Shown here: positions 5,616 to 56,780 of the stretch, one piece after another
Position numbering within the stretch: position 1 is the stretch's first letter
Layout of the letters: every line of letters starts with the position of its first letter
Assembly (NCBI GenBank): GCA_032871835.1
Contig: CM065299.1
Coordinates: 93,665,152 to 93,729,151 of the forward strand
Source of the DNA: Dipteronia dyeriana
Lineage: Eukaryota > Streptophyta > Magnoliopsida > Sapindales > Sapindaceae
DNA: 64,000 nucleotides
Direction: 5' to 3'
Notes under the pieces: model-generated
The model's database searches: none
What the model saw: the letters and a program-made list of their open reading frames with translations, nothing else
Told to the model about the DNA's origin: nothing
Made by a program: the position numbers and the translations under genes

Positions 5616-8600
5616 ATGGAGGATGGGAATAAGGATTCAGCTACGGCTGATGGTGCTGAATCCAATCAGCAATCTTACTGGTTAGATGCTTGTGATGACA
5701 TTTCTTGTGACATTATTGGTGATTTTGTCGATTTTGATACTTCTTCGGTTGTTCCAAATCAAGACGGCAGTCTTGGTAATGATTTTTTTGGAGGGATTGA
5801 TCACATTCTTGATAGCATAAAGAATGGCGGTGGGTTGCCTAGTAATAATGATAATAATTTATTAGGGAATGGAGTTCAAGATAGCACTATCGGTGAGAGT
5901 TTGTTTCAGAATGAGGGCTTGAGTAATGGTAGTGATAATAAAGATAATCTTGAAAGAAAAAGGAAGGTGCAGAACGGTGATCATGCTAAGAATAATTTTA
6001 TAAATGGTAAAGGAGGGAGTAGGTTGTTGAGTCATTCGACTAATGAGAATGCAGTGCGCAGGAATAATGGAGATAGCGGTCGTGAGGCATCAAGTGATAG
6101 CGAAGAGAGGTTCAGCAAACGGGCTCGGGTTAGCAGTAATAAGAATGAGAGGCAGTATACAAGTAGGGGGCAACAAAGCAATAGGGATAGGGACAATTAT
6201 TCTAGTAGGAAGAGGAATCGTGATGGGGATGAGTTTGATAGAAGGGATAGGGATCATATCAGGAGAAGAGAAAATTATAATGGTAGTAGTAGGAGAGATG
6301 GAAGAGATAGGGATAGGGATTGGAGGGATAGAGAATCAAATGGTTACTGGGAGAGGGATCGGTCAGGGTCCAATGACATTATTTATCGTTCAGGCACTTG
6401 GGATGTTGGTCATAATAGAGAGGGAAAGGAAGTCAATGGGATAAAACAGGAATGCAATGAAAAGGTGGAGAAAGAATTGGAGGTCAAGGAAAAAATTCCA
6501 GAGGAGAAAGCACGAAAGTATCAATTGGATGTTCTTGAACAGGCCAAGAAGAAGAATACAATAGCTTTTCTCGAGACAGGGGCAGGCAAGACACTCATCG
6601 CTGTTCTTCTCATGAAAAGTATTAGCAACGATTTGCAACAGCATAACAAGAAAATGCTTGCTGTGTTTTTGGTTCCAAAAGTTCCACTTGTATATCAGGT
6701 TTGTATGTTTGGAAACCACATTCCCTTTTGGAGTTTAGTATTTATTGTGTCAATTGAAAGCAAAAATGAATTGAAATTATGATCATCTTTGTCTAATTTC
6801 AGCAAGCTGAAGTTATTCGGGAGCGGACAGGTTTCGTAGTGGGCCATTATTGTGGTGAAATGGGTCAAGATTTTTGGGATGCCCAAAGGTGGCAGCGTGA
6901 GTTCGATACAAAACAGGTAACTTTTGAAAATTCTGTTAGTGAGAACATGTTTTCCCGTATTTTCAGGTAGTTTTTTGTTTTAATGTGTTACCTACCTCTC
7001 TATAATCGGATAGTTGTTTTCTGTTGATAGTAATTTGTTATGTTAACCTTATTCATGCTTATATAATTGTTATCTTTCCATTTGTCTTATTATGTCCGTC
7101 AATGTTTTAAAAAGTGTTGACGGTTCGGGGCCTTTTTTTTTCTTGTGAGGCGATGTGGCCACTTCGATTTAGAAATATTAAATAATGCAATTTTTTTTAA
7201 ATAATTCCGAATGTGTGAGATTTGGGTGGGGTGTTGCTCCGTTTTTTTTTTCCTAGGCAGAACTGTTTTTCTATTTTTTGGAACATAGGTGGTGTTGTTT
7301 GATGAGTGAGAGTGGGGGCGTTTGGTGAGTGAGCTGTTGGGGTTTCAAAATATTAATTCTAACTTGGACAACTTCAAAACGGTGAGTTTTGATAAAAAAT
7401 AAAAGCCTTGATTCAAATACCATCGTTTCACCTTTCAAAACCAAATTGATATGGCACCAAAACACACTGCTTCACCACCCAACACCAAATTGGTATGGCA
7501 TCGCCTCACTGCCCCAAGTCGGTTCGGCCTTGAGGCAGTCACCTCATTGCCCAAAGGTGGGGTCATTTTAAAACAGCCCTGAGGTGCCAGCCTCAAGGCG
7601 GTGAAGGCCGGAGACGGCTGAGGTGCGCCCCAAGGCGGCCGCCTCGGCCGATTTTTAAAACAATGATGTCTGTAGATTCTTATAAAGCCATTTATATAAG
7701 ATTCTAGTTGCTGTTGATTATTGATAGTAGGGTTTGAGTTGAAGTTCTTTTTTTTTGGTTGTTTACTCGTTTATCAAATAATGTCTAGTTGATTTCAAAT
7801 ATCAGTAGTGATGCTACTCTGAGGCAAGCCTTCCAAATGCCAGGCAAACAGTATTGTTTTGCTAGTGCAGGACTGGCAAGGTATTTGTTTGGTTTGTTCT
7901 CTGACATAATTTCTCTCTATATGCTTATAGATTAATTAATTGCAATTTGAAATTATTTCCCTGCAATGTTTGTCTTCTGATAATGTAATTGATGGGCTTG
8001 AGATAATAGCATTGAATTAGCAACTGAATAACATGTGTTTTCACAGTGAGTTTGTATCAATATGGTCATGCACTATTAACAGAGGTGTCTGCATTTGATT
8101 CCTTGAATCTGCCTCTTGCCTTGTTACAATGGGTAGGGAAAATTTCATATTTGTATTTAATTTCGTTGTATGGACATCTCTTGCTACTATACTGTTGTCA
8201 ATCTGTGGATGCTTCAATGGTTTTTTACATAATTTTTGTTCAGTTGTTTCTCTTTTTATTGTATTAAGAGATATATGTATCAATTCAACACGTAGCAAAT
8301 ATTGCTATGAGTTTTTGGCTCCAATGTATGGCTGAAGTAGGTTCTTAAATGATGAGATTATCGATGAATGGCATAAAATTGGTATTTATCATGCTCGGGT
8401 TCACCTTACTGTTAGTCCTGTCTCATGATGTGATGGTTGTTCATTACTTAATTACCCAATTGCTGCCTTTGCCACAGGTATTGGTTATGACAGCTCAAAT
8501 TCTGTTGAACATTTTGAGGCACAGCATAATCAAAATGGAAGCAATCAATCTCCTTATTTTGGATGAGTGTCATCACGCTGTGAAGAAACATCCATATTCT

Positions 8601-11600
8601 TTAGTGATGTCTGAATTCTATCATACCACACCTAAGGAGAAGAGACCTTGTGTTTTTGGAATGACTGCTTCTCCTGTAAACTTGAAGGGTATTGGTTTAA
8701 TTTGTGGCTATTGGGTTTGCTTTTCGTTTCTTTCATTCATACATACATACATATATATATATTGAAGATATTGTTTTTTCCTACTGGAGCATCTCAGTTA
8801 ATCAAGTGTATATATATATATATATATATATTGAAGACATTGTTTTTTCCAGTGGAGCATCTCAGTTAATCAAGACTATATTTTCAATTAGTTATAACAC
8901 TAATTTACGGCAATAATCATTTTAAACTGTGGCATGTTCTGGATGTTTGTATTATGTTATATTCAGGTGTTTCGAGTCAAGTGGATTGTGCAATAAAAAT
9001 CCGTAATCTTGAAAGTAAACTAGATTCGATAGTTTGCACGATAAAAGATCGAAAGGAGCTGGAAAAACATGTACCAATGCCCTCAGAAGTTGTGGTAGAG
9101 TATGACAAAGCAGCCAGCTTATGGTCCCTTCATGAAAAAATTAAGCAAATGGAAGTGGCTGTTGATGAAGCTGCACAATCTAGCTCTAGAAGAAGTAAAT
9201 GGCAATTTATGGGAGCGAGGGATGCTGGGGCCAAGGAAGAGCTGCGCCAAGTCTATGGTGTCTCTGAAAGAACAGAGAGTGATGGGGCTGCTAATTTAAT
9301 ACAAAAGTTGAGGGCTATTAATTATGCTCTCAGTGAACTGGGTCAGTGGTGTGCTTTCAAGGTATAATTACTTAAAGATAAGTTTATTATATGTATTGGT
9401 CAACCACATAACTGCTCGGGAATGATTTGTTTCTATTTATTGTGTAGGTAGCACAATCTTTTCTGACAGCTTTACAAAATGATGAGAGGGCAAACTACCA
9501 ACTTGATGTCAAGTTTCAAGAATCCTACTTGAGTACTGTTGTCTCTCTTTTACAATGTGAATTACTAGAGGGTGCAGTTTCTAACAAGGATGCAAAAGTT
9601 ACGGATTTAGAGAATGGCATTGCTCACAATGGGACTAATTCTGATGAGATTGAGGAGGGAGAGCTTCCTGACATTCATGGTGAGTTTTGACTCTTGTCCT
9701 CTTCGCAAGTTCGCAGTAAGCAACTTAAGATATTTTTTGTTCTAATTCGATCAAATCTAAGAGGTATTCACGATCTGGGAAACCGGATTACATTTAATTT
9801 TCTTGAAAATAAAATGAACATGTGGTAATTTGGATAGGGCAAGTCTAAAGCGCCAAGATTAATATTAAGCACAAAACAAATTATTTCAGGGATAGAATCT
9901 GTATATCTCTGGGATAGATCTTTTTACACTCTAGCTACTCATAATAGTTGGCTTGGGGCATATGTGAACCTGAATAAGTTTCTGGGGTCACTTAATGAGC
10001 TACCAATATGGATTATCACTCTTGTTTCTATGTTAAGCATATGCCGCCTCTTCTTAAAATTTCTTCATTTATGCATGTGATTGGGAAAAAAAGAGTTGAA
10101 AATCTCTACTAATCTGGTCCACTTGCATGATGTAGTTGTCTCTGGTGGAGAGCATGTGGATGAGATAATAGGAGCTGCTGTAGCTGACGGAAAAGTGACC
10201 CCAAAGGTTCAGTCACTGATTAAAATACTTCTCAAGTATCAGCACACAGAGGATTTTCGTGCAATCATCTTTGTTGAGAGAGTTGTGGCTGCGTTAGTTC
10301 TTCCTAAGGTTTGTTATGTCAATGCATATAATGTTTCTATGCATCTTTACTTATTTAATTCCTCTTATTAAGTTACTCACAGTAATGGCTTATTCTTCCC
10401 AATTTCCAGGTTTTTGCAGAGCTTCCATCTCTGAGTTTTGTTAGGAGTGCTAGCTTGATTGGGCACAACAATAGTCAGGAAATGAGGTCCTGTCAAATGC
10501 AGGACTCAATTGCAAAATTCCGGGATGGTCGTGTATGTCTAGTTGCCGTGCTGACTTAATGTGATCACTTGCTGTAATGTTCATTTGTAGATGTCTAATG
10601 AAAGTTTGAATGTCTTGTAGGTGACTTTGTTAGTTGCCACTAGTGTTGCTGAAGAAGGACTTGATATTAGGCAGTGCAATGTTGTTATTCGCTTTGACCT
10701 TGCAAAAACTGTCTTGGCTTACATTCAGTCGAGGGGTCGTGCCAGAAAGCCTGGGTCGGATTACATCTTGATGGTTGAGAGGTACTTGCGTTGGATCCGA
10801 TCTATGTCAGAATTCTCTTTCAACAAAAATTATATGAAAGACTCAAATTTTTGTTTTCTTTCCAGGGGGAATTTGTCTCATGCTGCATTTTTAAGGAATG
10901 CTAGAAACAGTGAGGAAACCTTGAGAAGAGAAGCTATTGAGAGAACTGACCTTAGTCACCTTAAGGATACTTCAAGGTTAATTTCAATGGACACAGTACC
11001 GGGTACAGTGTACCAGGTGGAGTCGACTGGTGCTGTCGTGAGCTTGAATTCTGCTGTTGGGCTGATCCATTTTTACTGCTCTCAGCTTCCCAGTGACAGG
11101 TGCTGTGCTTATAATACATACATGACAATTTATTAATGTTGTTGGTTATCTACTTTTTTCTCATTTGCTTTTTATGCATATATCTATCAGGTATTCAATA
11201 CTTCGTCCTGAATTTATAATGGAGAGGCATGAGAAGCCAAACAGTCCTGCTGAGTATTCATGCAAGCTTCAGCTTCCGTGTAATGCACCATTTGAAAAGC
11301 TGGAGGGTCCTGTCTGCAGTTCAATGCGCCTTGCTCAACAGGCATGCTATCATCATATCAATGTTAATTATACATGCTATCATCATATCAATGTTAATTA
11401 TACAAACTTTACCTTACCTTCATTAGAGGATATTGGTTTATTATATGTTTCATGTGTAGGCTGTTTGTTTGGCTGCTTGCAAAAAGCTCCATGAGATGGG
11501 AGCATTTACTGACATGCTCTTACCAGACAAGGGAAGTGGGGAACAACAAGAAAAGGTTGACCAGAACGATGAAGGAGATCCACTTCCTGGGACTGCTAGG

Positions 11601-14600
11601 CACAGAGAGTTCTATCCTGAAGGGGTAGCTGATATACTAAAGGTTCGTTGTCTTTTATGTTTTATGTAACAGTATTTTGGCTATATTTTTTTAGTGGCAA
11701 ATAAAATATTGCTGATATACTCGTGCAATATTTCATGGGGATATATTTGCGTCTTTTAGAAGTGCCTGGTGCGTAATTTGTTTTTTTTTTTTTTGTTTTT
11801 TGTTTTTTCAGTTTTTAAGGTGGTATCCACATAGGTGTTTGATGAGAGATATTTGTTTGTTCATTAGCTTTCTTTTCGCTTTTTCTTTAATTTTTTTGCA
11901 ATGATGGATATAAAATAGATGTGATTTGGTTTATATTCATGATGGGCCATGAATTACTGGTTGGTGGTTGTCATTGTCACAGATGATAGCTTAGTGAATT
12001 CATGTGGTGGTCTTCTGTTTGTTGATTTTTGAATCATGTATTTTATCGTATCATGTCATAAGAAACAGTTGTTTGGGGGAAAAAGTTGGAAAATTGAAAG
12101 AACAACGCAGAAAGTATTTCATACTTAAAAGGGAAAGTAATTTGATAATGTAGCATTGTTTCCGTGGAAATACAACTCAAGCTGTTTTATTACATGTGAC
12201 ATAAATGTTGACTAATTCACCTTTCTCAAATGTGATTTTTTCCCTCTTATTTAGAGTGTTGCCTTCTGGCTTTAGGTGTAATTGCATATTATTGTTGATT
12301 AAAGTATTTTTGATGTGTACTTTTTTTCTGTTTTCCCCGTAAAGGTGTATATGTGAGGTGACTTATAAATTGAAGTATTTTTGACACATGATTTCTCAAG
12401 TTCCAACATTTAATTTCTTAAGCATAATTTTTTCTCATATAAAGTATGGTACAATATACTGAATAACAACATTCTTTGTTAGAAGATGTTTTCCATCCTT
12501 TCCTTTTCTATGGAATAAAGTTTTTCTTACCGTAAGTTCATATAGTGTTTCTGTTATGATTTCACTAGCGTTGGTCTATCATTTCTCCTGCGATGCTAAC
12601 AAGTCAAGGTTCCATATTTTAAGTTGTTCTCTAATCTAGCACGTACATACTTGAACTTGCTGTCATTAGGGAGAATGGATCTTATCTGGACGAGATGGTT
12701 GCAACGAATCTAAGTCGTTTCATCTCTACATGTATTCTGTCAAATGTGTGAATAGTGGCACTTCAAAAGATCCGTTCTTAACTGAAGTTTCAGAGTTTGC
12801 AGTACTCTTTGGAAATGAACTGGATGCAGAGGTATTTGAATTTATTTTCAATATCATTTTGTTAGGTTAACTGAAGCATTTGATACTGACGACATTTATT
12901 GTCAAGTGCCAACAGGTGTTATCGATGTCGATGGATCTATTTATTGCTCGTGCCATGATCACTGAGGCATCCCTTGTGTTCCAGGGGTCAATTAATATTA
13001 CTGAAAGTCAGGTTGGTTGTTGATTAAATTATTTGGATAGTGTTAATATTTCTGTGTTTAGATTTTGGTTTCTGGTGCTCATCATAAAATTCAAATTCTG
13101 CTTTTTTGCAGCTGGAATCCCTTAAAAACTTTCATGTAAGATTGATGAGCATTGTACTGGACGTGGATGTTGAACCTTCCACCACTCCATGGGATGCTGC
13201 AAAAGCGTACTTGTTTGTTCCGGTGGTTGGCGATAAGGATCTAAATCCTTTAAATGATGTTGACTGGGATTTAGTAGATAAGATAATTACAACAGATGCA
13301 TGGAGCAATCCCCTTCAGAAAGCTCGACCAGATGTTTACCTTGGCACAAATGAACGGACACTAGGTGGAGATAGAAGGGAGTATGGATTCGGGAAGTTGC
13401 GCCATGGCATGGCTTTCGGGCAGAAATCTCACCCAACGTATGGCATCAGAGGAGCTGTAGCACAGTTTGATGTTGTGAAAGCTTCTGGACTGGTTCCCGA
13501 TCGTGATGCTATGGGAATGCAAAACGTGGATATGCCCAAAGGAAAATTGATGATGGCTGATTCCTGTGCTAATGTAGACGATTTGGTAGGGAGAGTTGTA
13601 ACAGCTGCTCACTCGGGAAAGAGGTTTTATGTGGAATCAATCCGCTATGAAATGACTGCGGAGAGCTCATTCCCGAGGAAGGAGGGCTATCTTGGTCCTC
13701 TGGAGTATAGTTCATATGCTGATTATTACAAGCAAAAGTATGGTCTCCATTTCTATTTTATGTTTTTGGTCTCTTTATTTCCTGTCCTTTTGTTCTATGA
13801 TGGATTGCATGATTCTAATACAAGTACAAATTGCCTAAATACATCTCAATTGTTGTGCATGAAGAAGGGCAAAAGCTTATCTAAATCTGTGAGAGGAAAT
13901 ACTGTATTACTGTCTGGTGTGAAATAGGCTGGCTTTGTTTAGCCTTAGTAACTCATTTTCTTACCGACAGTAATCTAAGTCCTCATAGATTGGAGAAGCT
14001 TTGTCTCTTCTTGCACAACTGAGGGTGTACTGGTCTATTTATTCTTTTATTTATCTTTATCAGGTATGGAGTTCACCTACTGTATAAGCAACAACCTTTA
14101 ATAAGAGGACGCGGTGTTTCATACTGCAAGAATCTGTTATCTCCTCGGTTTGAACACTCAGAAGGTATGTTTTTAAGAAATCACATACTGCCTCGTAAAG
14201 TTAGTTTTGATTAACTTGAATGTTTTATTAAATGTGCAAGTGTTTTTGTGTAGCACCGGAAGGTGAAATGGAAGAGACTCTTGACAAAACGTATTATGTG
14301 TTTCTACCTCCTGAGCTTTGTTTTGTACATCCACTACCTGGTGCACTTATTCGAGGTGCCCAGAGGTTGCCGTCAATAATGAGGAGGGTTGAAAGTATGT
14401 TGCTTGCAGTTCAGTTGAAGGATATAATAAATTATCCAGTCCCTACGTCAAAGGTAATTTAATAATTGAGTTGACTTGTTCAAATGTTTGTCAAGTACTT
14501 AGTAAGTGATGTGTACCTTCTTTATCTACAGATTCTGGAAGCTTTAACTGCCGCTTCATGCCAGGAGACATTCTGCTATGAAAGAGCAGAGCTTCTGGGA

Positions 14601-16518
14601 GATGCTTATCTGAAATGGGTTGTGAGTCGATTTCTGTTTCTTAAATATCCCCAAAAACATGAGGGTCAGCTCACGAGGATGAGGCAACAAATGGTCAGTA
14701 ACTTGGTTCTATATCAGTATGCACTGAGTAAAGGACTTCAATCATATATTCAAGCAGATCGCTTTGCCCCATCAAGATGGGCTGCTCCTGGAGTACTGCC
14801 TGTCTTTGATGAGGATACTAAAGATGGAGACTCGTCCTTATTTGATCGTGAGAAATCACTTGCTGACGGTAAACCAGGAACTTTACATCATGATGATGAA
14901 TATGAAGATGAAATGGAAGATGGTGAGCTTGAGAGTGACTCAAGTTCTTATAGAGTTCTCTCTAGCAAAACATTGGCAGATGTTGTCGAAGCTTTGATTG
15001 GAGTTTATTATGTTGAAGGTGGGAAGAATGCAGCTAACAACTTTATGAAATGGATTGGGATTCAGATAGAATCTGATCCTGAGGAGACAGGTGACCTAGT
15101 AAGACCATCCTATGTTCCAGAGAGCATTCTTAGGGGTATTGACTTTGATGCCCTTGAGGGTGCCTTGAACATTAAATTTAAAGACCGGGGCCTGTTAGTG
15201 GAAGCTATTACTCATGCTTCCCGACCTTCGTCTGGCGTATCTTGTTACCAGCGTTTAGAGTTTGTTGGTGATGCTGTCTTAGATCATCTCATCACGAGGC
15301 ACTTGTTTTTCTCATACACAAATCTACCCCCAGGTCGCTTGACTGACTTGCGAGCTGCTGCTGTAAACAATGAAAACTTTGCACGTGTTGCAGTTAATCA
15401 TAAGCTTCATGTGCATCTTCGTCATGGATCTAGCGCCCTTGAAAGACAGGTTTGCTATTTTGGCCTTCCCTGGAGTTTTGTTAATTGCTTTCTTGGCAGA
15501 AACTGTTTTTTTTTCCTTAATCAATTTGGCAAGGTATTTGTTTGGTGTGTCCTCTTGACATAATTTTCCTGACTTCTGTTTTCAGATTCGTGAATTTGTG
15601 AAGGAAGTTCAAGAAGAATTGTCAAAGCCAGGGTTCAATTCATTTGGCTTAGGTGATTGCAAAGCTCCAAAAGTTCTTGGTGATATCATAGAATCTATTG
15701 CTGGTGCCATCTTTCTTGACAGTGGACGAAATACTGCAGTTGTTTGGAAGGTTAGTTTCAGCCTCTTTGTTTCCTCTCCTTTTCTTCCATGTACAAACAA
15801 GCATATAAATAGAAAGATTTAAAACTGTGTCTTTCAAATTTCTCTGTTTCCTCAGGTTTTCCAACCTTTGTTGCATCCAATGGTCACTCCGGAAACCCTC
15901 CCCATGCATCCAGTGAGGGAGCTACAAGAGCGATGCCAGCAACAGGCTGAAGGCTTGGAATACAAAGCCACTCGAAGTGGTAATTTGGCTACTGTTGAAG
16001 TCTTCATTGATGGTGTCCAGATAGGAGTTGCTCAGAATCCACAAAAGAAGATGGCTCAGAAACTAGCTGCCAGGAATGCACTTGTTGTTTTGAAAGAGAA
16101 GGAAAAAGCTGAAGCCAAGGAGAACATTGACGAGGTGGATGGCAAGAAGAAGAATGGTAACCAGACATTTACCAGGCAAACCTTGAATGATATCTGCTTG
16201 CGTAGAAATTGGCCTATGCCGTCCTACAAGTAAGAAGAGTTTATTTATTTATTTTTATTTTATATATCTGTTATTTTTGCTAGTATCTTTGTTAAATTGT
16301 TAGTGTGTAGAACAAAATTCTGATCCCTTGTCTCCTCTAGGTGTGTGAATGAGGGTGGTCCTGCTCATGCTAAGAAGTTTACTTTTTCTGTTCGCGTGAA
16401 TACTACTGATAAAGGATGGACGGATGAATGTATAGGAGAGCCTATGCCAAGTGTGAAAAAGGCCAAGGACTCTGCAGCTGTTCTTCTCTTGGCACTTCTT
16501 AATAAATGGTACTCATGA
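5616..16518 (+). CDS. DCL1: DICER-LIKE 1 ribonuclease
   Basis: Nuclear RNase III that cuts pri-miRNAs with HYL1 and SERRATE. Coding exons: 5616-6698, 6803-6916, 8478-8688, 8967-9361, 9448-9679, 10136-10308, 10410-10532, 10621-10781, 10866-11099, 11191-11341, 11460-11642, 12670-12831, 12916-13011, 13112-13737, 14064-14164, 14254-14453, 14532-15449, 15586-15750, 15856-16229, 16341-16518. Twenty exons, as in Arabidopsis DCL1; the sum is 5880 nt, 1959 aa (Arabidopsis about 1909). Seen: an Arg/Asp/Ser-rich N-terminus typical of DCL1; helicase P-loop GAGKT (322-326) and DECH (from 428); helicase C motif ending [13 protein letters not shown]283, platform and PAZ; RNase IIIa ERAELLGD (1432-1439); RNase IIIb QRLEFVGD (1655-1662); two C-terminal dsRNA-binding domains. 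The start is the ATG at 5616; the GTG three codons upstream in frame was not used. Intron 10 appears to be GC-AG. The gene looks intact. Confidence 0.97.
7101..7664. mobile_element. MITE-like insertion in DCL1 intron 2
   Basis: DCL1 intron 2 (6917-8477) contains a GC-richer block with inverted ends: aatgttttaaaaa at 7101 and, on the other strand at the right end, cattgttttaaaaat. The interior has repeated GGCGGCCGCC-like and TTGGTATGGCA-like words unlike the surrounding AT-rich intron. This fits a small non-autonomous DNA transposon. The target duplication was not resolved. Confidence 0.5.
8762..8874 (+). repeat. tandem duplication with TA spacer in DCL1 intron 3
   Basis: Two nearly identical 44-45-bp copies (8762-8806 and 8831-8874; they begin ttgaagatattgttttttcc and ttgaagacattgttttttcc) are separated by an alternating TA run. 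The repeat lies inside DCL1 intron 3 (8689-8966). Confidence 0.85.
11342..11459 (+). other. GC-AG intron 10 of DCL1 with internal duplication
   Basis: The conserved reading [13 protein letters not shown] is restored only if the 118-bp intron begins with GC after CAG at 11341 and ends with AG at 11459. Nearly all of its first half is a 30-bp unit, tgctatcatcatatcaatgt onwards, present twice in tandem (about 11345-11374 and 11375-11404). GC-AG introns are a known minor class of U2 introns. The GC donor is inferred from protein conservation. Confidence 0.75.
12820..12925 (+). promoter_or_regulatory. miR162 target site split by intron 12
   Basis: The end of exon 12 reads CTGGATGCAGAG (12820-12831) and exon 13 begins GTGTTATCGA (12916-12925). 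Joined, they are complementary to miR162 apart from one bulged base. In Arabidopsis miR162 guides cleavage of DCL1 mRNA at this same exon junction, which gives feedback control of miRNA biogenesis. Because the site exists only after splicing, only mature mRNA can be targeted. The miRNA sequence is from memory. Confidence 0.9.
13851..14019 (+). ncRNA. MIR838-like hairpin in DCL1 intron 14
   Basis: DCL1 intron 14 (13738-14063) folds into a long imperfect stem. The 5' arm starts tgttgtgcatgaagaagg at 13851; the 3' arm ends tctcttcttgcacaac at 14019. Paired blocks, read 5'->3' on the 5' arm, are gttgtgca, aaagctt, aatct-tgag and attactgtc, with the terminal loop about 13921-13960. The 3'-arm segment ending ctcttcttgcaca (14017) resembles ath-miR838, which ends acttcttgcaca. 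In Arabidopsis MIR838 lies in intron 14 of DCL1, where its processing competes with productive splicing. Same intron, same arm and similar 3' sequence support homology. Expression is unknown, and the miR838 sequence is recalled, not searched. Confidence 0.72.
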
Positions 16519-24319: not shown

Positions 24320-26705
24320 TTAAGGCACATGATGTATGGATTCAGGAGACATTGATATCATCTGCAGAAGACTTGAATTCGAAAATGTTTCCTGCAATGC
24401 ACGTCCCCTCTTGCTGTGATCTCCATCTAAGTTCTCTTTTGCTATGTGTACAAGCTCCTTGGCAACATCAATCATGCCGACTTTCCCATCTCTCCCGAAT
24501 AACATACACCGCGTTGCAAGGTCTGCAACTATCTCTATCTGCTCTCTTCGAAAGATCGGTTGCTCGTGATAGTATAGAGATGGATCCACAATCTCTTCTA
24601 GCTTCCAACTTCTTATTTTCTGCAATGCACCTGTTGGTTGATCAATGTGTTTGGACCCTGTTATCAACTCTAAAAGTAGCACACCAAAGTCGTAAACATC
24701 GTTTTTATTATGGATTGAATTACCCAATTCCAGGTTTGAGTGATCTAGTACTAATCCAAACCCGGAAATTTTTACTGAGAATTCTTCATCTAAAAAGATG
24801 TATCCGGATTTGAGGCCGCGGTGGAAAATGGGAGGACAAATCTCGTACTGCAAGAAAGCAAGAACATTAGCTGTTTCGGCTGCAATGGTGAGCCTCTTAT
24901 ACCAATCAAGGCCAGTTTTGTTTTCACTACTCTTTTGCAAATGTTCCTCCAGGGTGCCATTTGCAGGATACTCGTACACTATTAGTGGGACGATTCCGGA
25001 TTCGATACAGCATCCGAGGAGACGTGCCAAATTCCTGTGCAGGATTGCTGTCAAAATATCAACCCGAGATATGACTTGAATGAGGTCTCTTTCGCTATCA
25101 CATTGCAATCTGTGTACAGCTATATGTGAACCATCTCCTAACACCCCAGCATAAATTGAGCCATTCGTGTTCTCTACGAGTTTTTGGGCGTCTTTGAATC
25201 CTCTGGTGGCTTCTTCGAGCTCATGATAAGTGAAGAAACGAGTCCTACAAGCTTTCCGGAATGAGATTCTACTGCCAAAATGACCTTGGTCATGATCAAA
25301 TAATGTAGCTCCTTGAACAGGTCGTTTTAGTAGACAAAAGAGTGCTAATAAGGAGACAACAACAAAGGCCGGAGCAAGAACACCTGCAAATTGAGATTCA
25401 AATTAAAGCAACTAGAATTTGTAAAAATTTGTCCTTATAAGAGAAGTATATATCTATATGCACAAAAGGGTTCATTCTGCTTCTGCAGTGACATACCAGC
25501 TACAATTACAACTTCTTTTTCACTTCTCCTTTTTGTGAAGCAGTCCTGTCCAAATGCTTCTTTTCCATTCTTGATACAGGCTGTCAAACATTATCATTTT
25601 GATTAACAAACAAATGTGAATATGTGAAAAAAAAAATATATATTCATGAGTACATCAGATAGCATAGAAAGCAAAAGCCTCTGTAGTCATGATGACCCTG
25701 TCATGGAACATAATGACATGAACAACTTTAATGATGCCCTAATCATGATGAATTCAGTGAATCAGAACTAATTAACAACAGCCCCCACATAGGTTTTATC
25801 TTCTATTGTGTACCCTAGTTGGGGGATTTAATGATTGTATCTAAATTGAAGTCAAATTCTTTATCATGATCACCAAAAAGCTTGAGTGAGCATGATCACA
25901 AAATTTACTCACATTTTAAGCAACCAGTACCATTGGCAAATCCATCTCCAACGAAACCATCCTTGCACAAGCACCTCACACCAGCTCCAACTGTTGTGGC
26001 ATTGACAGTGTTTGAATTTGTAGCACAAACACCTTTGGATGTATTTCTGGGAATTGCCCACTCTAATTTGACCCCACGTTTCCCGGTATTGGTACCTCTC
26101 TCAACAGCCCAAGACGAAAATCCCCTGCATCCATACTTTGAAAAACCTGAAAATCCATCTCCAACATGCCATACACTGTGATCAGATAGTGGGTAACAAC
26201 ACGCAGGTGAGCCACCACCACCGCCATTGCCATCAACATCATCACAATCAGGCAAGTTATTTGTTTCACAACCTGTTTTGCACAAAGAAGAATCCTCACA
26301 ATCATATAAACCAATAACATTATCAACCGAGACTCCAAAGTGGTCGTTTCTCGAGAAACCAAATGAATTCAAATCGTTGTACTGGCGACAAGAAGTTATC
26401 CCCGGAAAATCCACCAGTACACCGTCGGAGAAGAATTCAACAACTTTGTAACTTCGAGCGCTGATGTTGAGGTAAAGGGTGGTTGAATTCGGGCAGTTGA
26501 GACTAAAAGCAGAGGAAAAAACAGAGGAACAAGAATTGGAATTGTTCAAGTGAAATGGAAATGGTATGCTTAAGTTTCCACATTTTTCTTCGATGCATTG
26601 ACATTGAAGTAAAACAGGTTGCTGATGTTGAGTAGAATAAGAGATTTTTGTTTGGTGAAGAATTGTGATCAAGAGAACACAACAAGTGAAAACCAAAGTT
26701 AACAT
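24320..26705 (-). CDS. wall-associated receptor kinase-like protein, predicted pseudokinase
   Basis: Cell-surface WAK-like protein. Exons, minus-strand order: 26705-25913, 25580-25497, 25383-24320; sum 1941 nt, 646 aa. The start is the ATG at 26705, giving a signal peptide (MLTLVFTCCVLLITIL); frame further upstream has only a GTG. Then come a cysteine-rich GUB_WAK-type galacturonan-binding domain (CGNLSIPFPF near the start), an EGF-like segment ending CLCKDGFVGDGF, a transmembrane helix (VLAPAFVVVSLLALFCLL) and a kinase domain like WAKL15/20. The kinase lacks the key residues: the glycine-rich loop is VENTNGS, the beta-3 Lys is His383 (VAVHR), HRD is HRG (Gly482), the metal-binding Asn is Tyr487, and DFG is GFG (Gly500). 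The frame is fully open, so it is probably a functional non-catalytic receptor, not decay. Confidence 0.9.
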
Positions 26706-26819
26706 AGCTTGTAGGAGGAACTGGGAAGTGTTTTGGAGTTTTGACTTGATCACTGAAGACAATGAAGAGCTTGCAGAGAATAGTTTTGAAGGAGTCTTAT
26801 TAACTGTAAAATGCACGTA

Positions 26820-28600
26820 CGTTCATGGGACCCACATTCAGATGAGACACGTGGCAAAGATCAGGAGGTGAGGCATGGAAGTTGGAGAAGAGGAGACGAT
26901 TGGTCTGTGGAATGGGTTACCAAATTCCAAATACATATAGAAGTGTGTGCGTTTTTAGGGAGCGTGGCCTTTGAGTTTTAGCGATTCAATTCATTTTCAA
27001 TGCCCTTGTGTAGTTGTGTGTGTATAATAAATTAATAATACTAAAAAAAAATTCAAATTGGCTCTTCTTTATAACAATAAATTAATGAAATCAAGATGGG
27101 TTTCGAGCATTGATAATGTCAAAATCAAATGCAATAATGTATGTAGTTTGAGAATTACGGAATGTCAGATCTAATTGCAATTCCCATGACGTGTAAAAAA
27201 AAAGCTATTTTACTACAGATCTAATTGTAATTCCCATGACGTGTAAAAAAAAAGCTACTTTACTCTATACCATGAATGTCAAATTTTCAACACTCAATGC
27301 CAGTAGAAGATTAAATCCATTCGGTTTAAGAACATTTCAAACGCAACCGTGATTTGTATTGAAAAAATAGTAACATATCATCACTGTTAAGATATTTATT
27401 TTCTATATATCATAAAAATATACTTCATAAATACTTAATTTAAAATTTAATCTCTAATACTTCAAGTTAAAACACTTGCTTTTTAATGACTCAATAAAAC
27501 TTGTATTTGATTGTTTTGTGGCTACAAAATGGTTGTCCTATAGATAATATGTTATTTGAAAATAGAGAATCCTGTTGACGGAATCCACGTCAAGAATGAT
27601 AATGAATTGTGATGACTGTATTAGAGAGATATATTTGAATTCAATATCTTTTTATCCTATTTTATATCTATATTTTTAACAACTCACAGTTGTGTTAGAG
27701 ATGCTCTAATGGTTATACATTACTTTTTTCATATTTGTAATAGTCTTTCCTTATATTTATCCTTTAAAATTCAAATGGTGGAAAAACCGTTGGAGCTTTT
27801 AGTGATCGATCATACTATCTAGTTTTAGTTGATTCTTTATCTGATTAGTATATGATTTTGTCTTCTTTTTCTTATCATTGGGTGGTGACATCTGTTCTAA
27901 TACCATGCTGGGTTGATTCTATATCTTGTGTCCAAACAGGTGGTGTAGAACTATTGGGTTGGGTGTGTTATTGAATTAATTTTTTAATTTGTGGTTTTTG
28001 GTGCGAATTTTTGGGGCTTACTTTTTTTCTCTCGGTTGTGTTGTAATTTTTTTGTAAGTTGTGAGCTTTGCCTTTGCTATTGGGATACTAAAAACATTTG
28101 ATTTGGTTTACTTTACGTGGTACCCGTAACATCTTAGAAATATTGACCGGGAAAACGAGAAGTTCCAACAAGTCAGCATGTGGGGCCTCATTGATGTAGA
28201 TATGTGTTTGACGTGGCACGATGTGAGTGGACATTACTGGACCCTACATGACCCACCAGACGCTCCACAAAAAGCGTCAAAATGAAGAGAAACTTTCTTT
28301 CTAGTGGCATAGATAGTAACAAAACGGTATTCTAATCATCGGTTCAATGGTTATGACCGTAGGATACTAATTATCAAGAAGCGACTTTGCATCTTTCATG
28401 TATAATTATTTTTGAAATTGGGATTTATATAACTTAAACGATCATAAAGTTAAAAGATGGTCTATAGTGTAATTTGTAAGCCTCCTATCAATACTATGCA
28501 CACCACGATAATATTGCGGTTCAAATCATATATAAAAAACTTCTGTTGATAGTAAATTTTAACATGGGATTAAAGAGAAATTTTTAATCTATTTTTACCT
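26820..28600. other. intergenic, WAKL promoter side
   Basis: No gene is recognisable. It holds the WAKL promoter side and a 50-bp tandem duplication at 27166-27265. Low-complexity AT-rich DNA otherwise. Confidence 0.5.
27166..27265 (+). repeat. 50-bp tandem duplication upstream of WAKL
   Basis: Two adjacent copies begin at 27166 and 27216 with cagatctaatt. Each contains cccatgacgtgt followed by a run of nine A. They differ at very few bases. TGACGT is a bZIP-core word, but regulatory use is unproven. Confidence 0.85.
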
Positions 28601-31575: not shown

Positions 31576-33586
31576 ATGGATCGGGTTAGATTAGTAATAT
31601 CTTACAACGGTCGATGGTAGCAATTACTTGATGGAAGTCAGAGGTTTCTTGGTTCCGATAACCAAGGAATGTATGTGTCCAGAAATATGACTTACGAAGA
31701 GCTGGTGTCGATTGTACAAACCGTTGTGAAGTACGATGTGAACAAATACATTGCTGATCTACAATCTATATCAATCGTTCCCGGGATAACATGTCGCACA
31801 TTTATAAGAAATGACGACGATGTTTTGTTTATGCTAGGGGAAGATAGGGTAATCCCTCAAGTATATGTCAGTTTAATTGAGAGGGCTGCATGAGGTGTCA
31901 TCGGTGAAGAAATCCCTCGTCATGATAACACCCAATAATCTTGATCTTCCGGCGGAAGCAACCAGTTGTTCACAGAAAGAAGTGGGATTGACGGTAGGAA
32001 AAACCTATGTGGTATCCCACCGGAAGTAGCCGTCCATGGTGATATAGTTGGAGCTCAATTGGACGATGATTTCGGTTGTCAAATTGAAATGAACGCTGAG
32101 CAGTACAACCACCAATACAATGAGATGTACAATGACATGAACAATGAGCGGAACAATGAACCTCATAACCTACCAATCCATGAGGTGGCTAATGAGACAA
32201 ATTTACATCCGGTACATAATGTACCGAACAATGAGGAAGATGAAAAACGGTTCGAAACGAGAAGACATGCAAGACGTGTCCACAGATGTAGTTCCACTAT
32301 AGTAAATATAGCTGGGACATCTGAGGTCTGACCTGATGTGACTCCAGCTGAGTCTGAGAATGCCAGAACGTGGGTTATTCCAGAAGCAGAATCATACTCG
32401 TTTGGTATGGGTGGAAGTAGGAACTTGGTAAAAGATGAACCTACCACCTTGATATATAAAGGTCATTTTTTTCCTACTAAAAAGGATTTGAAGAGATTGG
32501 CTGGCCATTTTACAATGCGGCACAACTTCGAGTGGAAGGTGAAAAGGTCGAATAAGACAACATTACATCTGGTTTGTTTGATAGACAACTGTACATGGAA
32601 GTTAAGAACGGTTAGGAGAGATGAAGCGACATACTTTCAAGTACGAAGTTTTTTCAAACAACACACTTGTCCGTTGGAGGAGATTCACCGCCGCCATCGA
32701 CAAGCTAGTGCAATCATAATTGAAGAAGTGGTTGCACCTAGATTGCAGCAACATGATGGTCGACTAATGCGACCGAAGGGCATAATCGCCGACATGAAAA
32801 CAATGTATGACATCCAAATAATGTACAGTAAGGCACATAAAGCCCTTGATTATGCATTGTCACTTACCTATGGAACGCATGAGGAAAGCTTTCAACTGCT
32901 GTCATCATTCGGTTACGTGCTGGAACAATAAAATCCCGAAACGATTACTGACTTACAGTGCGATGAAAATGGTAAATTCCTATACTTACAGTGCAATGAA
33001 ACGGGCTGGAAAATAGTGGACATTTGACTTAGCCCGGAAGACCTGCACATGTAACAAATTCCAAATGGACCTTCTTCTATGTTCTCACGCTCTCGCAGCC
33101 GCAAGGTACATCATACAATTTTGTGTACGGTTAATATTACTTAAACATCATACAATTTTATCATCGTTTTCAATGTTTTTACAGGGACCGAAACATGAAT
33201 TTCACATCCCTCTGTGTGGACTACTACAAGCGACAAACACTTATTGATGCGTACTCGGTTCCTATTATACCGGTTGGACATCCTTCCACTTGGATTGTGC
33301 CATCTGACATCGCTGAGAGAGTCATTTTGAATCTAAGCCCCAGGAGACAAGCAGGCCGCTCGAGGGCTTCACGCCGTATCTCGACTTCGGAGAGAACATC
33401 CGCACAAAATTGTAGATGATGTCGACAACCAGGGCATAATTCGAGGAGATGTTCTAACCCAGCTTTTACTGATGAAGATCTGAGCAGAGTCATTCCTGAG
33501 GAATACAGACGCAAGTGTAGTTTCTGTCATACTATTAGTCACAACAGACAAACGTGCCCTACTAGAGACGGTGGGACCATGGAATG
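31576..33586 (+). pseudogene. MuDR-family transposase without its catalytic core
   Basis: The N-terminus starts MDRVRLVISYNGRW and then hits a stop; the frame continues past it. The 32338-32931 part is the plant MuDR DNA-binding region, with the C-x-C-x-H-x-C type zinc motif (LIDNCTW to KQHTCPLEE) and a MULE-typical stretch up to SSFGYVLEQ. Almost immediately a SWIM zinc finger follows (CTCNKFQMDLLLCSHALAAA, about 33040-33105), then, after a likely intron, a zinc knuckle (CRQPGHNSRRC). The DDE catalytic domain that should sit between DNA-binding and SWIM parts, normally several hundred residues, is missing. With the premature stops this means no transposase activity. Confidence 0.85.
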
Positions 33587-36700: not shown

Positions 36701-38241
36701 TCAACATGTAAATGAGTCACAACTTCACAACATCGTACGCCTGTTGAAACTCTCCCTGGGTAAGAACAACCCTCAAGTCATCCAATAATACCTCATCATG
36801 CCCAGGAAAGTACCGTTGATGTATGCCATTCTCAACTGCAACATACATACTCGTGTCCGGTAGGACTCCAAAACGTAATCCAGTGATGAGACTAAATTCC
36901 ACCTTCGAAAACCTCACCATATGGTTCCCTAACAAGAACCGCATCTCATCTATCGGCCCGTCATGGTCCAACTCCCGCAACAGCAGCTGATGAATAACAC
37001 CACCCGAAAACTTCAGCTCCCGGTGCATCGACATGAAATGCCCAAAACAGGGGGCCATGAACCGACGCCAATCCTCAACAGCAAACTCTTCAGAGATCCG
37101 ATTAAGTGCATCGTCTATACGGGCGAAGGCTTCAAAATGGTCGTGTCGGATCAATTTTCCCTTGAACCAATCTCCCTCTGTAGTTTTAAGCAATTCCTTC
37201 ATACTGCTCGTCATCTGCAATGTCACAGAAACAGTACATCAGTAAACTGCACAAAAATTATAAAATATTCTCGATCGTTTGAAACAAATTCTCGATACTT
37301 TTAAAATATTCTCGATCTTTTGAAAAAGTTCTCGATTTGTTTAAATAGTTCTCGATCCTTTGCAAATAGGCTCGATCCTTTGAAATTAGTCTCGATCCTT
37401 TGTAAAACCTCTCGATTCATTGAAAAATCTTCTCGATCATTTGAAAAAGTTCTCGACCCTTTGACAAACATTCTCGATTGTTAGAAAATATTCTCGATCC
37501 TTTGAAAATACTCTCGATCCTTTGAAAATACTCTCGATCATTTGAAAAACCTCTCGATTATTTGAAAAATATTCTCGATCAATTTAAAAAATCTCAACCC
37601 TTTGAAAATATTCTCAAACCCTTAGGAAAATTGTCTCGATCCTTTGAAAAACCTCTCGATTCTTTGAAAAATCTTCTCGATCATTTTCTAAAATCTGGAC
37701 CTTTTGAAAAATATTCTCGATCCTTTGAAAATAGTCTCGATACTTTGACAAACCTCTCGATTCTTTGAAAAATCTTCTCGATTCGATGACAAATCTTCTC
37801 GATTCGATCATTTTAAAAAATCTCTATCATTTGAAAAACAATCTCGATCGTTATCATAATATTCTCGATCGTTTTCAATAATTCTCGATCGTTTTCAATA
37901 ATTCTCGATCTTTTCAAAATAGTCTCGATCCTTTGAAAAACCTCTCGATTCTATGAAAAATATTCTCGATCATTTAACAAAAGCTCGATCACTTTGAAAA
38001 ACCTCTCGAATCTTTCTAAAAAAATTCCTCGATCTCGCTTGAAATATTCTCGATTTATTTTTATTTCAAAACAAAAATTGCTCGATACCAGAATATTGAA
38101 CCTCATTTCAAATCCAAACCAAAACCACAATCAGTGTCAACCCTAATCTACAATTTCAATCAACAAAACAAGTCTAAAATGCAATGATAAGTTATGAACA
38201 ACAAATCGAAAAATAAAACAAACTGAACTTACCTCTGTCAT
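33800..38241 (-). pseudogene. DUF1985/Ulp1-like peptidase gene carried by the MULE
   Basis: Reads leftward. A mini-exon encoding Met-Thr-Glu at 38241-38233 has a good donor (gtaagt); a long intron (38232-37215) holds the right minisatellite. The next exon starts at 37214 and encodes a DUF1985-type domain (SGGVIHQLLLREL, MVRFSKVEFSLITGLRFG). A proline-rich linker follows (about 35524-35240). The C-terminus is a C48 (Ulp1/SENP) cysteine peptidase: the His-Trp region HWLLVTVNLTCGKMFIVDPW (around 34270-34310) and a catalytic-Cys region NCGPHTLRLIEYI (around 33915-33965). Several frameshifts or unrecognised introns separate these blocks, so the copy is probably decayed, but the catalytic words remain. 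This class of peptidase removes SUMO-like modifiers; its role in MULEs is unknown. Confidence 0.75.
37260..38085 (+). repeat. minisatellite in first intron of the Ulp1-like gene
   Basis: About 800 bp of 20-25-bp units around ctcgatcctttgaaaaata. The core is the same as in the left array (30592-31505) and in the same plus orientation, although the two ends of the element are inverted relative to each other. Confidence 0.9.
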
Positions 38242-43917: not shown

Positions 43918-46900
43918 ATGGATCAGAAACAAGTCCGGTTGATTGGGGATTACATAGTGGGTCCGAGAATCGGGTCGGGTTCGTTCGCGGTGGTGTGGAA
44001 GGCCACCCACCGTCAGCTGGGTATTGAAGTTGCAGTGAAGGAGATTGACAAAAGGTTGCTTAGCCCAAAAGTCAGTGATAATTTGCTCAAAGAAATTTCC
44101 ATACTCAGCACCATCAATCACCCCAACATTATCCGATTCTTGGAAGCTATCGAGGTCTTTTATTATTCATAATCATTATTATTATTATTATTTCTTCATT
44201 TTTTCGATGTTGTTTTGTTGGGTTTATATATATATATTTTATTAACTTGGTGTGTGTACAAGTGATGATAATGTATTATGATGTTTTTGATTCTGGGGTT
44301 TTTGGCAGACTAAAGAGAGAATTTATTTGGTTTTGGAATACTGTGATGGTGGTGATCTTGCTGCTTACTTAAATAGGCATGGCAAAGTATCAGAGGCTGT
44401 TGCCAGGCATTTTATGAGACAATTTGGTATATATAACGGTTACTTTACATTACAGTAAATCAATATTGATTTTCATTCAAGTTCTTACTCTTCATGTTCA
44501 GGCAATTCGATTTGAAAATTCTATCTTATTTGGTAATTCACTTATTCAATGTTCAATTACCATGGAAAGTGTTCTTTTAATGTTTTTTCTTAATTGGATA
44601 ATGCTATTTAGCTGTTTAGATTCAACCAAATTGATATTAGTACTGATTATGCAATGGGTATGTTATAAAGAGTTTGCTTTGCTAGTTTATGGTTAATTCT
44701 GGCCCCCCGAGTTTTATACATTCTCCATTACTGTATTTGGTGCATGTGGGAACGAAATTCTTGTACTTTGTTTGATTGGTGCATTATCTTGTGCAGCCGC
44801 AGGATTGCAAGTGCTGCATGAAAAACATCTCATTCATAGGGATTTGAAGCCGCAGGTATTTTGTCTTGTTCACAAAGTGTAATTTAGATGTTACTAGTTC
44901 GATTTTCTCTACCAAGTGCTGTTATGCTATGTTTATGGTCAAATATAGATCAGTTTACTATCAAGGGTTTGTGTATAAGCCATACAAAATTCTGCTGGAA
45001 ATCTATAAGGTATTATAGATAGATAGTGTGTATGGCGTACCTAATACTTCCGCAGGGTTCTGTAAATGTACTTCGTTGGGGATGAAAGCTATATTTCTAT
45101 GTGAATATTTATAATTAGTAGTTGCGTTGTAATAATAAGCTGGACATCAATGCCATGTGGTGTATTCTTTATAATTCTTTATGCTAAAACCTGCAGAACC
45201 TATTCTTATCAACTAACGAAGCAACTCCAGTATTGAAGATAGGGGATTTTGGTTTTGCCAGGTAATTCTGTTGCATTTTTAAATTCATATCATGTCTTGT
45301 AAATCCTATCTTATTTCTGTTTTACATAATGATATGACATTTGTGCCGTAAACGTTAGATGGTTGAAAACTCTGTATTTGTTTATGCATGTTCCTTTGCG
45401 ATGCTTTTGAGGGGTGTCCCCACTATATCCTCAATTTCTTAGAATGGACCCTGTTCCTTCTGACACCCGAATTATCATAATGATGGCGCAGCAAAGAAAT
45501 AAATTAAAAAAAAAAAACCTTAATCGATTTGTTTGGCTGGTCTACTTGGATCCATGAAAGTCTACTGAGGATCTATATTTTGTTAATTGACAATCATTGG
45601 TTATCATGTGAGCCACACCTCTCATGTTGATTCTTTTACTGTACACTAATTTTGTGATAATGTGGAAGGATTATTAATTTGTATCTTCAAAATCTTTGGA
45701 AACAAGTTTTTTTGAATCTATTCTGTAAATCAGTCCAGTGCACTGATAATAACTTGCTGACAATTTTGTTTGACTGATGGATTTTGCCACTTCCGGGCAG
45801 CAAAAATTAAATTATAAAGCTGATTTGTCAATTTTCTCAAATTATCTTTTGCACTTGGTCATATCCTGTATTTATTTGTTTGTTAGGTCCCTGACACCCC
45901 AAGATTTGGCTGATACACTATGTGGTTCACCATTATATATGGCTCCTGAGATTATTCAGAACCACAAGTATGATGCAAAGGTTATGAAATTACTTTGAAT
46001 TTTCAGTTTCTGTTGAATTTATCACCTTCATGGTTTTAAATTGAATGTTATGGTGTATGCAGGCTGACTTATGGAGTGTTGGGGCAATCTTGTTCCAACT
46101 GGTGACCGGGAAACCTCCGTTTGATGGCAACAATCACTTGCAGGTGTTTGGAAGATGAAATGTGTTTTTTCCATTCAAAAGATTTTAGAATTCTTCATAC
46201 GTTTATCAAAGCTTAAGAGCAATAATGATTGACAGTTATGTGAAAGTTCTCAATTTGTGCTGCTTATTCTTATTCCGATACTTTTTTGCGCACAGCTTTT
46301 TCAGAATATTTTGACATCCACCGAGCTTCGGTTTCCACCAGGCGCTTTAGAAGACCTACATCCAGATTGTGTGGACCTCTGCGGAAGCCTTTTACGACAA
46401 AACCCAGGTACTGGTTGCTATTGTGCAGATTTTTTATTTGTGTTGTAAATGTTGGTATGTGTATGCTAATGATTGTAGCTTAATATTATGATAATCTGCA
46501 TATTGCACAACTGGTCTTTTATAAACTTTTATAATCTCAACTTTGATTTGCAGTTGAACGGATAACATTCAAGGAGTTCTTTACTCATAAGTTCCTGGGG
46601 GAGCTGAGGTAACCTTTTGAACTTCAGTGCTATAAACTGCTATATGTTGTTTGCAATTGGTGTTGTATATCCTTTTTATTCCTTTCTGTTCTGGTATTTT
46701 TAGCAGGCAAAGATAGTTCATCCTAATTAGACTAATTATAACATCATGATCTGCAGACAGGCAGTTGATGTTGAACAGGCTTTACCAGTTCCACAAATGG
46801 AACCGGTAATTGAGCAATTCAATTCTTCTATTCCTGAAGAGAGGCCTGCATCTAGCAGAAATCCAAAATCGGCGTGTTCTTCTATACGTGACAAAATAGT

Positions 46901-55768: not shown

Positions 55769-56780
55769 AACCAGACCTGGGCAGATACCGCTGCTTCAAA
55801 TCCTCTCTAACGAGCAATGGATAAAACAAACACCTCCCTCCATTTCTTCCCTCACTATATACTAATAAATCCGTTGTTGCAGTAGTTAACAAAAATTTAT
55901 ATGGGAAAACTACTGCAAAAGACAAAAAAAAGCAACAGCAATCGATAGAGATCCGTCTTGGTTTCGTTTCAAATAGCATTCCAATTCACATTCACTGAAG
56001 ATATAAACAACAAAATGATTATGAAAATAATAATAATAATAATAATGAAATTTTGAGAATCCACCAGAACAGAGAGAGAGAGAGAGAGACGCTTCTCCGA
56101 AAGTACTTAAAAGAAAAATCCTTTATTCAGAATCCTCACCAAAACGAACCCGTAGACGGCAAAACCTTTACAACGTGGAGATGAAAACACAAAAGCCACA
56201 AAGAGACAAAAACGTGAATCAGTAATCAACAACCATTTCCATATCTAGTACTCCACCTTTCCAATAATGAAATCAATACACCACTTCTCATAGAAGTTTT
56301 AACTTACTCTTTCTCTTTGTTTGCCGAGACACATAGCTCAAATTTCAAATCTCATAATGACTTTAAAAAATCCAAAAAGCGAAGTGTGAAATTTGAAATC
56401 TGAGTTCGGTGTCTTTTGGTAGATTTTTCTCGGCGAGCAAAGATAGAGGTGGAAGTGGAAGCTCTAAAGAGATGGAAAAAGTACCTTTGAAGAAATCCAT
56501 GGCGTACGAGAACTCTAGAAGCATCGATACAGTTGTGATCATGCATGGACGGAGAATTCACCGGCAGCTAACCGGAGAACTCATGGTTGCCTGCAGTGGT
56601 GGATCTGAATCGAAAACACTTTTCTTATAATAAATTCGAAAAGAGAAAGATTTTGAGTTGAAAAATCGAGCAGAGAAATGAAGAGAAGAGAAGAGAAGCA
56701 AGAGAAGTGACAGAGTTTTTGTTGTGGAGAGTCAAGAGTGGATACCTATGACTCCAGAAACCACAGTTTGGGAAACCAAG
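55769..56780 (-). promoter_or_regulatory. LHY 5' leader with non-coding exon and upstream frames
   Basis: Reading leftward from about 56700 there is a CT-rich leader with repeated cttctctt. An upstream ATG opens a frame at 56561 that runs to 56352. A plausible donor (caaag|gtactt) is at about 56486. A 3' splice site (cttttgcag or gcccag) lies close to the main ATG at 55768. This implies a non-coding first exon with upstream ATGs, as is usual for LHY/CCA1 genes. A GA microsatellite is at 56069-56089. Exon borders are inference. Confidence 0.5.

Follow-up and report, generated by a model that had tools for sequence, protein, structure and literature searches.

A putative MIR838 orthologue in intron 14 of the DCL1 gene of a maple-like plant

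Results

The DCL1 gene and its neighbourhood

The window, which is the whole stretch of 64,000 nucleotides (64 kb) analysed here, carries a DCL1 gene with the following features.

5616..16518, plus strand: DCL1 gene, intact, 20 coding exons, 1959 aa before the stop
12820..12831, plus strand: first part of the miR162 target site, at the end of exon 12 (CTGGATGCAGAG in the spliced CDS)
12916..12925, plus strand: second part of the miR162 target site, at the start of exon 13 (GTGTTATCGA in the spliced CDS)
13738..14063, plus strand: DCL1 intron 14 of the gene model, 326 nt, donor AAA/GTATGG (the slash marks the exon-intron border), acceptor TCAG

The gene model included 19 introns with GT-AG borders and 0 internal stops. 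This agrees with the sequence-only reading of this DNA, which had claimed an intact DCL1 gene of 20 exons with a homologous intron 14 of 326 nt. In the same model, a GC donor replaces GT at intron 10 (11342-11343, CAG/GCATGC). In addition, intron 2 (1561 nt) includes a strong GC-rich (about 0.6) stem at 7481-7669, which is possibly an insertion. Exon 14 matched AtDCL1 (PDB 7eld) with an E value of 2.1e-108, and the whole protein was 97% identical to DCL1 of Acer negundo at 100% coverage, 90% identical to that of Xanthoceras and 89% to that of longan. The likeness to Acer negundo identifies the host as a maple or close kin, in Sapindales and so outside Brassicales; the sequence-only reading had only considered the case of a plant outside the relatives of Arabidopsis. 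Sapindales and Brassicales, the order of Arabidopsis, both belong to the malvids, and Medicago is a fabid. One scan each of viral contigs and of genome contigs with DCL1 exon 14 returned no relatives.

The 22-nt miR162 site spans exons 12 and 13, and its pairing with miR162 reached -33.7, compared with -37.5 for a perfect site. Since this site is present, the plant could have both of the feedback arms known from Arabidopsis.

Downstream of DCL1, we found a soluble pyrophosphatase ORF (Pfam), which precedes a gene that we take to be LHY-like; the 425-aa ORF of the latter had no Pfam match. The order DCL1, pyrophosphatase and LHY-like gene is presumably the same as that of At1g01040-At1g01060. 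Furthermore, there is a wall-associated receptor-kinase-like gene at 24320-26822 on the minus strand, which consists of an ORF with a galacturonan-binding domain and a kinase ORF. Two transposon-like ORFs scored below their Pfam cut-offs, one at 32332-32928 on the plus strand (MuDR DNA-binding domain, 24.0 bits, cut-off 25) and the other at 36720-37238 on the minus strand (DUF1985, 26.9 bits, cut-off 35.1).

A stable stem-loop in intron 14

Intron 14 contains a long stem-loop, whose parts are listed below.

13817..13850, plus strand: weaker basal extension, 5' side, pairing with 14020-14047 in the minimum free energy (MFE) structure of 13817-14047, mean pairing probability 0.50
13851..14019, plus strand: core of the MIR838-like stem-loop, MFE -66.2 kcal/mol
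13856..13879, plus strand: 5'-arm stretch facing the miR838-equivalent segment, 24 nt, from the MFE pairing table
13997..14017, plus strand: putative segment at the miR838 position (AGCTTTGTCTCTTCTTGCACA), from alignment with the RF03974 consensus
14020..14047, plus strand: basal extension, 3' side, mean pairing probability 0.61

The core was far more stable than its shuffled versions, which had a mean of -38.05 kcal/mol (z = -7.27, matched by 0/200 shuffles). The extended stem 13817-14047 (z = -6.71; 0/200) and the whole 326-nt intron (-87.5, z = -4.09; 0/100) were also stable. Thus, the long stem at 13851-14019 that the sequence-only reading had claimed does exist, its 3' arm ends with tctcttcttgcacaac as described there, and the fold of the complete intron, which had been proposed as a check, gave the same answer.

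Pairing is strong along the miR838-position segment, with a mean probability of 0.94. On the opposite arm, the bases 13866, 13867 and 13874 are unpaired, so that the facing stretch is 24 nt long, with an end point inferred from the 2-nt overhang rule. The duplex at the miR838 register includes one mismatch pair and three unpaired bases, the latter on the 5' arm only, and it would be a 21/24 duplex. Published criteria for plant miRNAs allow a miRNA/star duplex to have up to 5 mismatched and up to 3 bulged bases, and the predicted maple duplex sits at this limit. Because of the three unpaired 5'-arm bases, a clean 21/21 duplex at this register is unlikely.

Stable stems occur elsewhere in the window. 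In a scan of the plus strand (step 60, 40 shuffles), an off-register window at 13861 ranked 8th of 1064 by z (-4.73). No window at the hairpin locus was among the 30 most stable listed in a raw-energy scan of both strands (step 20, 6384 windows). The strength of the stem is not unique in the 64 kb, and the case therefore rests on homology and position. At the level of sequence, CTTCTTGCACAAC occurs exactly once in the 64 kb, and the partner arm is its sole match with one mismatch (0.10 expected at one mismatch or fewer).

Several other repeats were seen during these scans. T-rich direct repeats of 27 nt (13752-13778 and 14034-14060, 74% alike) lie close to the two ends of intron 14, flank the stem and may be only low complexity. 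The strongest hairpin of the z scan (-8.22) is a MITE-like repeat at 54570-54819, which combines an 87-nt direct repeat (80%) with a 25-nt inverted repeat (92%) and probably lies in an intron of the minus-strand LHY-like gene, below the Myb exon. The second strongest (z = -6.96) is a long AT-rich inverted repeat at 56281-56449, upstream of the same Myb exon; this repeat is possibly young or a source of small RNAs.

Homology to MIR838

A 401-nt stretch was searched with Rfam, and the top of 4227 families was MIR838 (RF03974) on the plus strand. The match extended from 13822 to 14046 and included most of the 5' basal extension; it covered model positions 1-170 of 170 with 24.8 bits and an E value of 0.012. 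As a palindrome, the stem-loop also matched RF03974 on the minus strand (17.8 bits). The gathering score of RF03974 is 190 and was not reached; a search of the whole window listed the family neither at this score nor at E <= 10. So high a gathering score probably means that the seed consists of closely related sequences. As the score is below gathering, we name the hairpin MIR838-like or orthologous and do not file it as a member of RF03974.

The consensus letters of both RF03974 arms were then aligned to intron 14, with 5000 shuffles and with all 19 DCL1 introns for comparison. The 5' arm scored 44, against a shuffle maximum of 38 (0/5000), and the 3' arm scored 33, a value reached by 11 of the 5000 shuffles. 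Intron 14 was the best of the 19 introns for both arms; the other 18 reached at most 22 (5' arm) and 26 (3' arm). Across the 64 kb in windows of 326 nt, the 5' arm was also best at the hairpin (44 on the plus strand and, owing to the palindrome, 46 on the minus strand), followed by 36 near 46001-46101. The 3' arm alone, with its 33 at the hairpin, was exceeded near 46601-46701 on the plus strand (35) and near 31800-31900 and 9200-9300 on the minus strand (36 and 34). Among the six best places listed for each arm and strand, only the hairpin locus was high for both arms in one window. We therefore take the hairpin as a probable orthologue of MIR838, mainly on the basis of the 5' arm and the position, and the homology to the Arabidopsis hairpin that the sequence-only reading had claimed is supported by both arms.

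What is kept of MIR838 is the base of the stem, GUUGUGCA...UGCACAAC, together with the adjoining CUUCU. The mature region is different. An ungapped comparison by hand of 13997-14017 with miR838, a sequence in agreement with the consensus of RF03974, gave 13 of 21 identical bases: the last 11 match throughout, but among the first 10 only 2 do. The earlier count of 11 matches among the last 12 bases (14006-14017) is right, and with 13/21 over its full length the mature miR838 sequence is not conserved. In the alignments, 3 nt of the mature region are missing relative to MIR838. With 2/10 first bases kept, 3 nt missing and a 21-nt product facing a 24-nt partner, conserved target choice is unlikely. 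In addition, within the DCL1 coding sequence the closest match to a target of the maple segment had 7 mismatches, which does not suggest self-targeting.

Covariation

The sequence-only reading had proposed arm covariation as a check, and this was not demonstrated. In the Rfam-fitted alignment, which leans towards structure, 43 of 55 lettered pairs hold (0/5000 shuffles reach 43), and of the 17 pairs in which both bases differ, 10 remain paired. In the sequence-only alignment, 35 of 44 pairs hold compared with a shuffle mean of 34.0 (1577 of 5000 shuffles reach 35), and pairing survives in only 2 of the 5 pairs altered on both sides. The covariation first counted in the fitted alignment (10 of 57 pairs doubly substituted yet paired) was rejected, since the unfitted alignment has no excess over chance. 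Covariation is thus not established from the two sequences compared.

Translated intron-14 tails of other plants

As a stand-in for intron DNA, we used predicted proteins whose reading frame continues from exon 14 into intron 14, and compared their C-terminal tails. Of 12 candidates obtained with the intron-14 tail by itself, none reached E <= 10. The ORF of exon 14 plus intron found 121 proteins, of which 120 were listed (P0121-P0240); such predicted ORFs are a usable, degenerate record of plant intron sequence. Tails with at least 20 residues after a 12-residue motif were scored, namely 34 and the hairpin plant's own, and the others were left out. The 24 tails shorter than 44 (stop counted) mostly end before a hairpin would start and hold little information.

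The ungapped test used 200 shuffles with Arabidopsis and maple motifs, and the gapped test used 60 shuffles with the 10 tails of at least 44 (stop counted) and the hairpin plant's own. P0207 and P0216 stood out: both had 0/200 with the Arabidopsis motif, 1/200 and 0/200, respectively, with the maple motif, and 0/60 each in the gapped test with the Arabidopsis arm (P0207 with the maple arm, 12/60). Their tails encode the MIR838 5' arm, and their nearest named DCL1 is that of Tarenaya (79-80%) in a comparison that used the best 120 of 661 DCL1 relatives. Tarenaya is a genus of Brassicales. These two tails thus serve as a positive control for the method. The maple-like plant's own tail gave 0/200 (ungapped) and 1/60 (gapped) against the Arabidopsis arm.

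Among the remaining ungapped results, P0136 (a 27-residue tail) had 2/200 with the Arabidopsis motif, and P0132, P0124, P0163 and P0180 had 2/200, 3/200, 6/200 and 7/200 with the maple motif. P0201 was unremarkable with both motifs and P0163 with the Arabidopsis motif. The eight other long tails and P0161 were retested with gaps, 400 shuffles and two arms. P0163, whose nearest named DCL1s are those of Pterospermum, Craigia and Durio, reached 2/400 with the maple arm and 36/400 with the Arabidopsis arm; P0201 (78-80% to its nearest) reached 12/400 with the Arabidopsis arm and 26/400 with the maple arm. P0180 had 9/400 with the maple arm, but elsewhere in the tail, and 349/400 with the Arabidopsis arm; the remaining six gave 23/400 or worse. 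Given 18 tests, the matches of P0163 (Malvaceae-like) and P0201 (eudicot) are only hints.

Discussion

A possible self-cutting device and its alternatives

If intron 14 is retained, translation is predicted to stop early.

13925..13927, plus strand: in-frame stop in retained intron 14 (ORF 13088-13927), truncated protein of 1377 aa

A stable stem-loop in intron 14, arms homologous to those of MIR838, a stop within the retained intron and a miR162 site are thus all present in this gene. Because this anatomy is shared with Arabidopsis, self-cutting in competition with splicing is the best explanation. We consider, with moderate confidence, that the hairpin is a MIR838 orthologue and that DCL1 most likely uses it to cleave its own pre-mRNA, a reaction that would compete with splicing. 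By analogy with Arabidopsis, plentiful DCL1 protein would excise the hairpin from the nascent DCL1 pre-mRNA ahead of intron-14 splicing. This cut would part exons 1-14 from exons 15-20, and less functional DCL1 mRNA would be made; where splicing comes first, the full DCL1 mRNA would result. The result would be feedback control of DCL1. The small RNA may be a by-product, because it is the paired stem base and the position that are conserved and not the target-choosing 5' half of the mature sequence. Papers that cite Rajagopalan et al. 2006, among them a 2016 Medicago study (PMC4833791), state that in Arabidopsis the DCL1 fragments left after a cut at the intron-14 hairpin are non-productive.

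It is also conceivable, although we think it rather unlikely, that the homologous hairpin acts, if at all, through splicing: it would slow the removal of intron 14 and produce a retained, truncated DCL1 mRNA without cutting by DCL1. The early stop in the retained intron would suit such a role, and so would the donor, which lacks the usual G at -1 and agrees with 6 of 9 consensus positions; however, among the 19 DCL1 donors two score 5 and six besides that of intron 14 score 6, so that the donor of intron 14 is not the weakest. The Medicago data point both ways. There, the DCL1 mRNA retains intron 14 at 9% in seed and at 15-22% elsewhere, and 5' RACE detected no cleaved DCL1 fragments; yet three 21-nt small RNAs come from the Medicago stem, none of them the miR838 homologue, and Arabidopsis is reported to release miR838 (PMC4833791).

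It is more doubtful that the hairpin is a relic, that is, an ancestral MIR838 locus decaying in this lineage without function. The 3 nt missing from the mature region, the three bases unpaired on one side, the poorly conserved 5' half of the mature sequence in the hand comparison and the unfitted alignment without covariation would all be consistent with decay. However, the stability of the stem is still extreme (z = -7.27), and the likeness of the 5' arm to Arabidopsis is far above that of shuffles, where long neutral drift of an intron would be expected to erase it. Finally, a chance or transposon-derived palindrome (such as a MITE) that merely resembles MIR838 is very improbable: the window does hold further strong hairpins, including the MITE-like repeat of the LHY-like gene nearby, a few other places score as high for the 3' arm by itself and T-rich direct repeats flank the stem, but both arms are homologous to MIR838 in the orthologous intron and CTTCTTGCACAAC has no other near copy in the 64 kb.

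Age of the hairpin and earlier reports

Returning to the reading of a self-cut hairpin, we tentatively propose, less firmly than that reading itself, that the intron-14 hairpin dates back to ancestral rosids, perhaps to ancestral core eudicots, and that its shape is what has been maintained, as a cis-acting "self-cutting" sensor of the DCL1 level. miR838 would then be a lineage-specific by-product, and Arabidopsis, Medicago and the maple-like plant would hold surviving versions, with hints in P0163 and P0201.

The sequence-only reading had suggested that such a hairpin would be older than thought. An orthologue outside Brassicales speaks for this, but it is only partly new, because a Medicago hairpin was published in 2016 (PMC4833791). 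That paper reports a DCL1 intron-14 hairpin with miR838-homologous sequence and calls miR838 "non-conserved" (PMC4833791), and a 2013 paper calls miR838 seemingly Arabidopsis-specific. The feedback on DCL1 that is taken as conserved is that of miR162. What is added here is one order, Sapindales, to a published legume hint; the question was not opened by it.

A Salvia study found no such precursor in any of 19 DCL1 introns, a grape prediction study found no matching precursor, and a Nicotiana benthamiana study had partial DCL1 assemblies of comparable size with no miRNA. A Brassica rapa study predicted MIR838 members from ESTs, and a 2026 review names miR838 in virus-infected cucumber and watermelon, without a link to the DCL1 intron in the text available. 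In the literature on miR838 and DCL1 intron 14, judged largely by title and the start of the abstract, we recognised no DCL1 intron-14 hairpin outside Brassicaceae besides that of Medicago, and no match combined miR838 with Acer. For longan, litchi, Citrus, Populus and grapevine, miR838 was in none of the matches listed, which says little on the remainder.

With a Sapindales orthologue beside Medicago, this feedback in cis could date back roughly to the rosids, and it should be sought by position and structure, not by mature sequence. The hairpin supports the published legume hint that this self-limiting device predates the cabbage family. It also suggests that the product under selection is the cut in the host mRNA, not the miRNA.

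Comparison with known systems

Physcomitrella miR1047, in intron 7 of PpDCL1, is likewise a hairpin in a DCL1 intron that has been proposed to feed back on DCL1 (PMC4429486, PMC4053937). However, it lies in another intron, has another sequence and is described as independently evolved. The Medicago truncatula hairpin is closer: by its published description, it is in the homologous intron outside Brassicales, has miR838-homologous sequence and meets a stop on retention, and it has small-RNA and retention data of its own (PMC4833791).

Arabidopsis MIR838 (RF03974, AtDCL1 intron 14) is the nearest system. The hairpin of the maple-like plant, known from sequence alone, differs from it in a longer upper stem and loop (225 nt on the 170-position model), in a mature region that is 3 nt short with 2 of 10 first bases kept, and in a score below Rfam gathering. 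Nevertheless, the two share the gene, the intron number, the stem-loop, two alignable arms and the base GUUGUGCA...UGCACAAC.
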